64,000 nt of DNA from Sulfurimonas sp. HSL3-1 (GTDB lineage: Bacteria; Campylobacterota; Campylobacteria; Campylobacterales; Sulfurimonadaceae), in the NCBI RefSeq assembly GCF_039645995.1, contig NZ_CP147920.1:2232001-2296000 (forward strand). Reading direction: 5' to 3'. Positions 10,182 through 25,589 of this stretch are shown in pieces. The stretch's first letter is position 1. Each line of letters opens with the position of its first letter. The notes beneath the pieces were generated by a model that searched no databases, was not told the origin of the DNA, and saw only the letters and a list, made by a program, of their open reading frames with translations. A program made the translations under genes and the position numbers.

Positions 10182-11911
10182 CTGCCGAACGGAAAAAATA
10201 TCGGTACCAATGCCAGCACAAGCGCGCTGTAAAGTACCGAAACCGGCAATCCGATCCTGACAAAGTCCGCGAACTTATACCCGCCGGGACCGTAGACCAT
10301 CAGGTTCGTCTGGTAACCGTAGGGGCTCATAAAGCTCGCACTTGCGCCGTAGGCGACCGCCATGATAAAAGGCATAGGGTCGGTGCCCAGCGCCGTTGCC
10401 GTTGCGTAGGCGACGGGGAAGCTGAGGGCAGCCGCGGCATTGTTCGTGATGATCTCCGTCAACAGGAACGTCATCAGGTAGACGGCGGCGAATGTGCCGT
10501 ATATTCCTATGCTCCCTGTCGCCTCTTTAATCCCGTTGCCCAACATTTCCGCGACGCCGCTGTTCATCAGCACCTGGGCGATTCCCAGCGCCGAGCCGAT
10601 GATCAGCACCAGTTCGAAGGGGAACGTCAATTTTACATCGCGCAGCGACAAGAACTTGAATATGATGAAGAGCCCCAGCAGGACAAAAAGGCCTTTCAAA
10701 AAGGGGAACACACCCGTCGCGCTTAAAACGATCACGCCGAGGAAAAGGCCCAGAATAAGCAGGCTCGTCCTCGTATCGAACTTATGGTTGAGCGACAGGT
10801 TCGATACGAAATAGAAATTCTTTTTCAAATTCTCGCGTTTGGAGAAGTCCTCTCCCGCCGTCAGCAGGAGGGTATCCCCCGCCTGCAACTCAATATTGCC
10901 CAGCTTGCCGGAGAGCTTCTCGCTCCCCCGCCGTACCGCAACGACCGCCGCATCGAACTTCGTGCGAAACTCTGCCGTCTTGATGGTTCGGCCCACCAGC
11001 GCCGATTCATGGGAAACGACGACTTCCGTCAGATTGTCCTGCAGTGGGCAGCGCTTGTTGTCGAAAATCGCCAGCCCTTTGAAACGGTTCAGCTCCTGAA
11101 CGTCGCGCATATTGCCCGTAAAGATCAGGACATCCCCCGCCTGCAGCACCTCCCGCGGCGTGACGGGAGAGATCAGGCGATCGCCGCGCATGACTTCCGC
11201 CAAAAAGAGCTGCTCCATGCTGCGAAGACCGTTTTCCTGGATCGTCTTTCCGGCAAGCGGCGAATCGGAACCGACGCGTGCCTCCAGAAAATAGCGTTCC
11301 TCCTGGGCACGTCCCTTTGTCGCATAGGTCGGCAGCAGCTTTGAGCCGAACAGGCTCAAAAATAGCCCCCCGGCCACGGCCAGCGGGAGTCCGACATAGA
11401 TAAAATCAAACAGAGACAGCGGCGTGAGGCCCGCATCGACAACGAAGCCGTTGACGATCAGATTGGTCGACGTACCGATGAGCGTCATCGTCCCGCCGAA
11501 GATCGCCGCATACGAAAGGGGGATCATCGCTTTGGAGGGGGCAACGTGTTTGTTGTTTTTGACCATGCTCATCATCGATGCGACAACGGCCGTATTGTTC
11601 AAAAAAGCGGAAAAAAGCGATGTCAGCCCCGTCAGTCGCAGCATCGATGCGAAACGGTTCGGCGAGAAGACCGCATGCGACAGCCACTCCACGACGGCCG
11701 TGCGCTCGATCACGCTTGAAATGACGATCAGCAGTACCAGCACGATCAGCGACGGATTGACAAAGTTGTGCAGCATCGCTTTGGTCTCGATAAGCCCGGT
11801 AAGGTAATAGAGCATCAACAAACCGAAAAAAAGCACTCCCGGACGGATGGTGCCGCGGATGAGCAGCACGATCAACCCTCCAAGCGAAAACAGGACCAGC
11901 ATGACACTCAT
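10178..11911 (-). CDS. SLC13/DASS-type permease with two TrkA-C (RCK_C) domains, probable sulfate importer
   Basis: The 577-residue protein has clustered hydrophobic helices at residues 1-190, then a soluble stretch of about 190 residues with two RCK_C-like repeats ([16 protein letters not shown] and [16 protein letters not shown] mark their starts), then a second block of membrane helices that includes [17 protein letters not shown]. This layout is that of SLC13-family anion transporters such as the SAC1-like sulfate permeases. Its position between cysN and cysC, overlapping cysC by 4 bp, makes sulfate the likely substrate. Other anions such as dicarboxylates cannot be excluded from sequence alone. 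Confidence 0.82.
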
Positions 11912-15490: not shown

Positions 15491-15573
15491 GCGAAGCCTT
15501 CTTGAGTGCGCAGCATAAAGCTGGCAGCGGGTGTCACTCCTTGGCCCTATCTACTACGCGTTATAATGCCGCT

Positions 15574-15864
15574 ATGTGGTACACCTTCGATAACGACGAT
15601 CTCATCCTTCATCTGCGTATCCAGCCCAAAGCGAGTTCGAACGAACTGGCCGAAATCATGGGCGAGGAGCGCAAACTGCGCATCACCGCCCCGCCCGTGG
15701 ACGGCAAGGCCAATAAACACATCATAGCACTGCTGGCGAAAATGTGCAAGGTTGCCAAGGGGGACGTCACGATAGAGTCGGGTGAGCTGGGAAGGAATAA
15801 ACGGGTACGGATCAAAAGCCCTCGGTTGTTGCCCGAGGGCGTCGAACCGCCGGTGTCAGCGTAA
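15574..15864 (+). CDS. DUF167/YggU-family protein
   Basis: The 96-residue product begins MWYTFDNDDLILHLRI and has QPKASSNELAEI and APPVDGKANKHIIALLAK, the two conserved blocks of the YggU (DUF167) family. The biochemical role of this family is not established. I chose the ATG at 15574 because the family starts at this point. An upstream in-frame ATG at 15502 would add 24 residues that look like non-coding sequence. It converges on argS with repeat A between them. Confidence 0.85.
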   Translation: MWYTFDNDDLILHLRIQPKASSNELAEIMGEERKLRITAPPVDGKANKHIIALLAKMCKVAKGDVTIESGELGRNKRVRIKSPRLLPEGVEPPVSA

Positions 15865-15883: not shown

Positions 15884-16198
15884 GAGCTTCGGCACACCGA
15901 AGCGCATCCAATAAAATTGGAGAACTGGCCTTGAGCGCTCCTTGTAAGCCGCCCTGGAGGCATAAAGCCAGGAAGGGCGAGCGATTCGCGAAAGGCCGCT
16001 TTTTGCGCTACTTTTTCTAAAAAAGTGGCATACATGTATTCTTCTCTATCTTTTCTTTTTCATAAGAAAAGAAACAAAAGAAAATCGTCGTTGCGCGAAT
16101 CGCTCGCTGCTCCCGGCTTTATGCCTCCGCAGCGGCTTTCATGGCACGCTTAACGACCGTTTGCCTATTGATAGATGCGCTTCGACGTATCGAAGCTT
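15884..16198. repeat. Repeat A, copy 1: ~314-bp imperfect fold-back element
   Basis: The segment is nearly a full-length inverted repeat: the left arm (from GAGCTTCGG at 15884 through GGAAGGGCGAGCGATTCGCG) matches the reverse complement of the right arm (CGCGAATCGCTCGCTGCTCC through GATGCGCTTCGA...GAAGC). A second copy lies at 25276-25589 in the same orientation. Each end also carries its own small hairpin: here GCTTCGG/CCGAAGC on the left and GCTTCGA/TCGAAGC on the right, while in the other copy the G-C and A-T pairs are swapped. It contains no credible gene and sits between convergent yggU and argS. It is probably a small non-autonomous mobile or structured repeat. Confidence 0.85.
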
Positions 16199-16248: not shown

Positions 16249-17844
16249 CTACTTCTCGTCGGCGACCATCCGGTCTTTGGCCGTGATCCCCATCAGGGAG
16301 AGGCCGGTGCGGATGGAGAGGGCAACCATCAAGAAGAGTTTGAGCAGTTTCGCTTCTTCCTCGGTCCCCAGTACGCGGTAGTCGTAGTAGAACTTGTGCA
16401 GACGGGCCGCGAGGGACTTGAGGTACTCCGGCAGCTTCTGCACCTGGCGCGATGCGAAGGCGTCCTCGATCACCTCGGGCAGCAGCAGCGCTTCAAAGAG
16501 CAGTGCGTCGGCGTCGGCATTGAGCCCTATGAGCTCCGCCGCCATGATCTGCTCCTCCGTCAGCTCGCTCTTGGAGAGGATCGTCTGGATCCGCGCATGG
16601 GCGTAGTTGATGTAGTAGACCGGATTCGAGTTGTCCTGCTTCTTGAGCGTCTCGACGTCGAACTCCAAGGCCGTATCGCTCTTCTTGCTCGCGAAGATAA
16701 AGCGCAGGGCGTCCGCCCCGATCTCCTCGACGATGTCGCTCATCAAGATGACGTTCCCGGCCCGCTTGCTCATCTTGTACGGTTCGCCGTCTTTGAGCAG
16801 ACTGACCATCTGCGACAGCAGAATCTCCAGCTTGTCGGCATCATACCCCAGGAAGCGGGCCGCCGCTTTCACGCGGGCGATGTAGCCGTGGTGGTCCGCA
16901 CCCCAGATGTTGATATAGTGGTCAAATCCCTGTTCGAACTTACGGTTGTGGTAGACGATGTCGCCGGCCAGGTAGGTCGGGCGGCCGTCTTCGCGCACGA
17001 CGACCCGGTCTTTCTCGTCCCCGTGCTCCGTCGAACGGAGCCAGAGCTTCTCTTCGCCCTCGTAAACGCCCTCGCCGAGCTTCTTCATCACCCGGTCCCA
17101 GTCGTCGTAAAGCGACGCTTCGCTGACGAAGGTGTCGAAGTGGATATTCGCGTCGCCCAGGTCGGAGACGATCAGAGCCATCACCTTGTCCTTCGCCCAG
17201 AGCGCGAGCTCTTTCTGGCGGTCAACGTTGGTGAGGATGTCGCTGCCGAATGCGCCGAGTGCCTCTTCGGCAAGGATCGTCATGTATTCGCCGCGGTAGT
17301 ACTTCTCCGGCCACTCGACTTCCATGTTGAGGACACTGTGCTGCCCTTCGAGTTGCAAGGAAAGGCCCAGCAGGTCGATCTGGTTCCCGGCGTCGTTGAC
17401 GTAGTACTCGGCCGTGATGTCATAGCCCAGGCGGCGTCCGAGGCGCAGCAGCGTGTCGCCGTAGACCGCGCCGCGGGCGTGGCCGATGTGCAGCGGGCCC
17501 GTCGGGTTCGCGCTGACGAACTCGAGCAGGATCTTGCCTTCGCGGTCGGCATGGCCGAACTGCTCCGGATTGGCAAGCGCCCAGCCGGCGTACTCGTCCA
17601 TAAAGGCTTCGGAGAGTCGGAAGTTGATGTACCCCTTCGTCGCTTCGACCGCGGAGAACATCGCATGTTCGCCGAAGGAGGAAGCCAGTTCGTCGGCGAT
17701 CACCATCGGTGATTTGCGCAGCTCTTTGGCCAGGGAGAAGGCAATGGGGGTGGCGTAATGCCCGAAAGAGCGGTCTTTGGGCTTTTCGAGCACGACCTCG
17801 CGCTCAAATTGCGCTTTGAGAAGCGCCGATACACGCTGTTTCAA
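16249..17844 (-). CDS. argS: Arginyl-tRNA synthetase
   Basis: The 531-residue class I synthetase has the HIGH-type motif FVSANPTGPLHIGHARGA near residue 115, the KMSKR-type segment YKMSKRAGN near residue 355, and the C-terminal anticodon-binding domain ending near the stop. It charges tRNA-Arg. It is followed 5 bp upstream in the genome order by tatA and then gmk and an acidic protein, an order I recall from Helicobacter pylori. Translation probably begins at the ATG at 17844. Confidence 0.96.
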   Translation of the reverse strand: MKQRVSALLKAQFEREVVLEKPKDRSFGHYATPIAFSLAKELRKSPMVIADELASSFGEHAMFSAVEATKGYINFRLSEAFMDEYAGWALANPEQFGHADREGKILLEFVSANPTGPLHIGHARGAVYGDTLLRLGRRLGYDITAEYYVNDAGNQIDLLGLSLQLEGQHSVLNMEVEWPEKYYRGEYMTILAEEALGAFGSDILTNVDRQKELALWAKDKVMALIVSDLGDANIHFDTFVSEASLYDDWDRVMKKLGEGVYEGEEKLWLRSTEHGDEKDRVVVREDGRPTYLAGDIVYHNRKFEQGFDHYINIWGADHHGYIARVKAAARFLGYDADKLEILLSQMVSLLKDGEPYKMSKRAGNVILMSDIVEEIGADALRFIFASKKSDTALEFDVETLKKQDNSNPVYYINYAHARIQTILSKSELTEEQIMAAELIGLNADADALLFEALLLPEVIEDAFASRQVQKLPEYLKSLAARLHKFYYDYRVLGTEEEAKLLKLFLMVALSIRTGLSLMGITAKDRMVADEK

Positions 17845-25275: not shown

Positions 25276-25589
25276 GAGCTTCGACACGTCGAAGCGCATT
25301 CAATCAAATAGGCCCTTGGCCTTGAGCGTTCCTTGAAAGCCATCCCGGAGGCCCAAAGCCGGGAGGGATGAGCGATTCGCGAAAGGCCGCTTTTTGCGCT
25401 ACTTTTTTTAAAAAAGTGGCAAAGAAATACTCTGCTCATTCTTTTCTTTTTCATAAGAAAAGAACCAAAAGAAAATCGTCGTTGCGCGAATCGCACGCTG
25501 CTCCCGGCTTTATGCCTCCGCAACGGCTTTCAAGGCACGCTTAACGACCGTTTGCCTATTGATTAATGCGCTTCGGTGAACCGAAGCTC
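25276..25589. repeat. Repeat A, copy 2: ~314-bp imperfect fold-back element
   Basis: Same orientation and almost the same length as the copy at 15884. The arms pair over most of the element: left GGCCTTGAGCGTTCCTTGAA against right TTCAAGGCACGCTTAACG, and left AGCGATTCGCG against right CGCGAATCGC. The centre is a low-complexity stretch (TTTTCTTTTTCATAAGAAAA). The end hairpins are GCTTCGA/TCGAAGC on the left and GCTTCGG/CCGAAGC on the right, the opposite of copy 1. The surrounding 460 bp between bcp and the DUF523 gene holds no other feature. Confidence 0.85.

Follow-up and report, generated by a model that had tools for sequence, protein, structure and literature searches.

The window analysed here is a stretch of 64,000 nucleotides, at 2232001-2296000 of the one closed contig (2.50 Mb) that makes up the Sulfurimonas sp. 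HSL3-1 genome, and it carries two copies of an intergenic fold-back element, Repeat A. Copy 1 lies between convergent genes: a left neighbour on the plus strand (15502..15864), which by eye we take to be DUF167/YggU-like and whose stop codon is 20 bp from the element, and a right neighbour on the minus strand (16249..17844), presumably argS-like, again by eye. The copy consists of a half unit L (15884..16030, plus strand, outer end to inner hairpin) opposite a half unit R (16049..16198, minus strand). L begins with an end hairpin P1 (15886..15903, plus; GCTTCGGCACACCGAAGC), continues with a closing stem P2 (GGCCTT/AAGGCC; 15927..15997, plus) around a hairpin P3 (15948-15955 with 15974-15982) and finishes with an inner hairpin P4 (16007..16029, plus; the GCTACTTTTTCTAAAAAAGTGGC region). 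R has the same order on the minus strand, with P1 at 16179..16196 (GCTTCGACGTATCGAAGC), P2 (GTCGTT/AACGAC) around P3 at 16087..16157, and an A/T-rich P4 at 16049..16073. Copy 2 is made of L (25276..25421, plus) and R (25440..25589, minus), with P1 hairpins at 25278-25295 (GCTTCGACACGTCGAAGC) and 25570-25587 (GCTTCGGTGAACCGAAGC). The two fold-back copies that the original prediction placed at 15884-16198 and 25276-25589 are hence both there, as are the hairpins of the form GCTTCGR-N4-YCGAAGC at each of their ends. The reciprocal change described between them is exact: in copies 1 and 2, respectively, the innermost P1 pair reads G-C and A-T on the left, and A-T and G-C on the right. Almost complete dyad symmetry, in turn, was a somewhat strong wording, because the arms are symmetric along their length but only 68-71% alike as inverted repeats within one copy. 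As in MITEs, terminal inverted repeats are present and, as had been stated, no conserved gene lies inside. The fold energy of the 315-nt strand of copy 1 is -158 kcal/mol (z -12.8), and other copies match the window copy at E values down to 5e-117, which is not chance.

Across the family, the building block is a half unit of about 100-150 nt in which P2 encloses P3 and P4 follows, with an outer P1 in the window's genus. The halves of Repeat A measure about 146-150 nt (L, 147 nt; R, about 150 nt, read on the opposite strand), and facing L and R units are separated by a spacer of about 18 bp, which BLAST boundaries put at 9 to 20 bp. Units occur singly or in arrays of the form L>R<, R<L>, L>R<L> and so on, in which 10-27 bp link the outer end of R to that of L, and the orientation of full halves alternates without exception throughout the arrays of the HSL3-1 genome. 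Each type has its own P2 sequence, as given above for copy 1, and P2 is followed by GCTTTTT or GATTTTCTTTT; P1 loops are found in both directions (GGTTCCC and GGGAACC). A single half is predicted to fold alone into P1-P4, with P4 A/T-rich in L as in R, whereas in a transcript of the whole element L would rather pair with R in one long hairpin. One R-half variant of P4 carries a G-G mismatch (GTTTCGTTTC...GAAAGGA, by eye), and we therefore do not claim P4 as conserved in every R half. The original prediction missed that Repeat A is built of two alternating half units whose conserved structure lies mostly inside (P2, P3 and P4), that it flips in place, and that it spans several genera.

How far does this family extend? 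DNA searches of the seven other genomes of the genus gave matches in five, with weak ones in a few others, whereas G002, a 99% complete genome of the same genus, had no DNA-level match. With a model built from the window's genus, members were also recovered from one further genus of the order. An exact pattern run against a collection of 84,980 species hit only Campylobacterota records (Sulfurovum, Sulfuricurvum, Sulfurovaceae, and MAGs of Helicobacteraceae and Campylobacterales) and one Heliophilum sequence, and the latter looks like a chance match, being absent with the covariance model. A second, cross-genus model has matches in 30 of 397 Campylobacterota genomes, the 367 unmatched genomes serving as background; these belong to seven of 68 genera and to three families, and presence among genera is patchy. 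There are up to 33 matches per genome, often as inverted pairs, and in one genome with 33 matches many pairs are divergent, their cores about 17-52 bp apart and their P4 hairpins on the outside. Distant members share the loop CCUUGAAAGC...GCGAUUCG, and their P2 stems are unrelated in sequence yet paired. Rfam covariance models at a lenient E value gave no credible match for the window or for distant members, plasmid, phage and viral contigs that were searched gave none at all, and literature searches of incomplete coverage turned up no description of such a family in Campylobacterota. Repeat A appears to be an undescribed, many-copy intergenic family that is Campylobacterota-wide. As a separate observation, Sulfurovum-type genomes (L092, L099, about 1440-1720) have short CCCGCCTTCGCGAGGATGACG-type palindromes beside half units, which by eye resemble CGTC-tagged REPs.

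In the HSL3-1 genome, all 33 half-unit matches at the threshold used fall in about 13 array loci; together with the further copies in relatives, this goes well beyond the two copies originally seen. All loci are intergenic and they are strongly clustered, with eight of 12 neighbouring distances below 25 kb against 1.5 expected at random. With gene direction judged from third-codon-position substitution, about four loci lie between convergent genes, about five or six between co-directional ones and two (1077 kb and 1480 kb) between divergent ones, with a few uncertain, and we find no consistent rule in the orientation of the neighbours among the loci of this genome. It is conceivable that the elements serve the host as RNA, and the main rival to our preferred reading is a two-way terminator or an mRNA 3'-end processing signal such as an RNase III site, with a T run behind the P2/P3 stem. 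The distance from the preceding stop codon is 15-60 bp at several loci, terminator-like sites occur in and at the ends of elements, GCTTTTT or GATTTTCTTTT does follow P2, and the sense strand of each half is directed inward; moreover, read-through of a whole element would yield a long double strand for RNase III. As the sole explanation, however, termination is opposed by the loci between divergent genes, at least two in number, and we reject it in that form. Arrays of the R<L> form point outward, the genus member G002 does without a recognisable copy, and the patchy presence among genera also argues against a host function of this kind, which we regard as unlikely on balance.

Whatever their function, the structure of the half units is under strong constraint. 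Over 120 halves and 23 pairs, 98.6% of paired cells hold standard pairs, compared with 87% in shuffles and 32-46% in slid versions of the alignment. Both sides have changed at 15 of the 23 pairs, giving 393 double-change cells against 145 in shuffles of the same 120 halves. In the end hairpin P1, 99.3% of the cells of these halves are paired, so that the end stems are maintained in the further copies and the proposal that structure is being kept is strongly supported by both controls. The cross-genus alignment is 93.5% paired, with 115 double-change cells against 34 in shuffles, and P2 of distant members shows nearly every pair type. The changes are also biased with respect to strand: by parsimony on a tree of halves, stem changes into G-U outnumber those into A-C by 43:12, although copies recombine and the half-unit tree is therefore approximate and the wobble events not fully independent. 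In unpaired columns of the same alignment C>U and G>A are balanced (56 and 62; Fisher p about 2e-4 against the stem bias), and the wobble excess is therefore no mutation bias. Counted as cells, wobble against A-C is equal in both types (L, 27:6; R, 27:6) and stands at 12:1 in P1, 11:6 in P2 and 31:5 in P3. Since the excess is found in stems and not in loops, one strand of each half must be constrained, most simply as RNA. We infer that this is the inward (outside-to-inside) strand of each half, which fits RNA, with strand-specific single-stranded DNA as a less simple alternative. Covariation with strand-specific wobble is a feature of structured RNA classes, the transcript itself being a prediction here.

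Could the compensated changes be purely mutational, with template switching in imperfect palindromes copying one arm to the other and no selection on structure? Arm-to-arm exchange is shown by the in-place flips described below, and P1 loops in both directions fit such a process. The P3 form GCCCU, present in 15 L and 14 R halves, implies that exchange also occurs between the types. Mutation of this sort, however, predicts as many changes into G-U as into A-C, at odds with the ratio in stems and with the balanced loop control. Furthermore, the arms of P2, about 60 nt apart, are always of one type per half, mixed L/R stems not being seen, whereas the P3 between them has been exchanged freely; and distant genera keep the pairing with wholly different stems. 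A purely mutational origin is thus improbable.

Comparison between species reveals that Repeat A is remodelled where it stands. Three further species of the genus, each with a closed genome, carry the element at the same intergenic loci, with flanking DNA that is mostly 84-97% identical. At four loci (2213144, 2257276, 2247884 and 1099350 in HSL3-1 coordinates) the flanks remain collinear, but the element between them reads either L>R< or R>L<, depending on the species. At 2213144 the interior is inverted and the P1 hairpins and flanks have not moved; at 2257276 the outer flank of P1 is unmoved and the P1 loop is changed, and the switch points of the inversions lie in or next to P1. Given the flank-based relationship ((G000,G007),(G004,G006)), parsimony counts at least six inversions at these four loci. 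Half units are also gained and lost, with 1, 1.5 or 2 pairs at one locus. Paralogues, at 84-86%, come close to the 87% similarity of orthologues from non-sister species, which is the expectation under sequence exchange among copies. At the window locus 25276-25588, L-half identity is 99% for the pair G000/G004 and 97% for G006/G007. These groupings conflict with the flank relationship and look like the outcome of exchange between species limited to the element, or of the sorting of old alleles.

Might a dedicated recombinase acting on the P1 palindromes flip the element as an invertible switch and so alter the expression of its neighbours? The flip points, a palindrome with a short variable centre and the number of flips are all compatible with this. 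The two P1 centres of one element differ, however, and strand-exchange recombinases normally do not tolerate differing site centres. No recombinase gene is linked to the element and ordinary exchange between inverted repeats would suffice, which makes a switch very improbable.

Elements have nevertheless reached new places. A three-half block L>R<L>, the last L of which carries a foreign insert of 275 bp, is found at different loci in HSL3-1 and G006, before an ABC-F-like gene in the former and a MATE-like gene in the latter (names by eye). The two blocks match over 761 bp at 89%, and because the match ends at the element edges, blocks can evidently reach new loci. Solo L units are present in G004 and G007 at sites that are empty in G000 and G006. 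Two of these empty/filled comparisons gave no clean target duplication and none is evident at a third, the sites being old and eroded. Three solo L units (G004:C1:529776; G007:C1:569131 and 591497) have an R-like P2 and about 20 bp in common beyond P1 and P4, and they possibly form a separate sub-family with its own ends. The insert belongs to a second repeat family of about 275 bp with ends TAAGGGTATAT..TATACCCT, which is inserted in the P3 hairpin tip of L and R halves (L031:11278-11553, genome 1481278-1481553; G006:C1:1526219-1526494; G007:C1:1709757-1710048). Another R half (L031, about 10765-10790) carries a short end-to-end remnant at the same position, and further copies lie elsewhere; this family may favour hairpin tips. 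As the copies of Repeat A are mostly ancestral, its own mobility must be rare or past. That it is moved by other machinery, as first suggested, is unproven, because neither a target-site duplication nor a partner transposase was found. In the four closed genomes the P1 pattern occurs only in the known arrays, with no autonomous element that has the same ends.

Several known repeat systems invite comparison. Like REP/BIME sequences and their RAYT REPtrons, Repeat A consists of two related palindromic units in alternating inverted orientation, single or in arrays, between genes (PMC3733652). REPs, for which roles in termination and mRNA stability have been proposed, are single hairpins of 20-40 bp, most with a GTAG or CGTC tag (PMC3733652), whereas the halves of Repeat A are 146-150 nt long with three or four helices and untagged, their ends reading GAGCTTCG or TTAGCTTCG and the L halves having no CGTC at the base of P2. 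That Repeat A is REP/BIME proper, mobilised by a RAYT tyrosine transposase, is scarcely credible despite its alternating, multi-copy, intergenic units and the single Y1_Tnp (RAYT-like) match in the genome, given halves several times REP length with internal structure, no tag beside P1, visible in-place inversion, and a Y1 gene (L087, genome 2318571-2318783) that is flanked by its own unrelated palindrome GCATTCCCACCGAGACGGTGGGAAC and was rejected as a partner. CIR repeats of Caulobacter and Brucella resemble Repeat A in having two long inverted arms with a linker, a conserved predicted RNA structure and intergenic sites (PMC2229807), but Repeat A is from a different phylum, has no GANTC-centred design that we noticed, and alternates between two distinct kinds of half that differ in P2 and P4. 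ERIC, Correia/NEMIS, YPAL, RUP, RPE and other MITE-like repeats are likewise short, non-autonomous and foldable as RNA, and effects on mRNA processing or stability have been reported for NEMIS and ERIC transcripts (PMC2229807); most of these repeats have target duplications and short terminal repeats, whereas the arms of Repeat A are long and a duplication was not seen. The BRE repeat of Betaproteobacteria, an intergenic repeat of about 90 bp with overlapping transcripts reported, also varies in copy number at conserved loci between species (PMC3110155), but it is described as tandem and is by that description set apart from alternating inverted halves. An integron attC array was rejected as well, because orientation alternates and the neighbours are conserved syntenic genes rather than mobile cassettes.

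We consider it probable that Repeat A is an undescribed, Campylobacterota-wide, non-autonomous intergenic family of BIME/MITE-like repeats with RNA-type structure, the copies of which are long resident and are remodelled in place; the original choice between a MITE-like and a structured-RNA repeat was essentially right, in view of the many intergenic copies, the covariation and the strand bias of wobble. We envision a scenario whereby half-unit RNA is made when neighbouring transcription reads in, and selection against mispaired P2 would keep the fold. Inversion and conversion in place might result from recombination or template switching between the inverted P1 or arm repeats, and copies might on rare occasions colonise new loci, through a mobility activity supplied in trans or through recombination with one another. 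More tentatively, Repeat A may belong to a phylum-wide class of structured RNA which comes in convergent or divergent pairs that invert where they stand, and in which a specific function resides in the conserved internal loop CCUUGAAAGC...GCGAUUCG, set between stems of variable sequence. Candidate functions of the loop are protein binding or a part in the element's own mobility.

In the literature and databases searched, we found no description of multi-copy structured repeats as complex as these from Campylobacterota. Their compensated variants across several genera form a natural series and permit a strand-resolved test for selection at the RNA level, and orthologous copies exist in both orientations. 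With this material one can ask what maintains bacterial palindromic repeats: mutation acting on junk, selection acting on RNA elements, or the two together.
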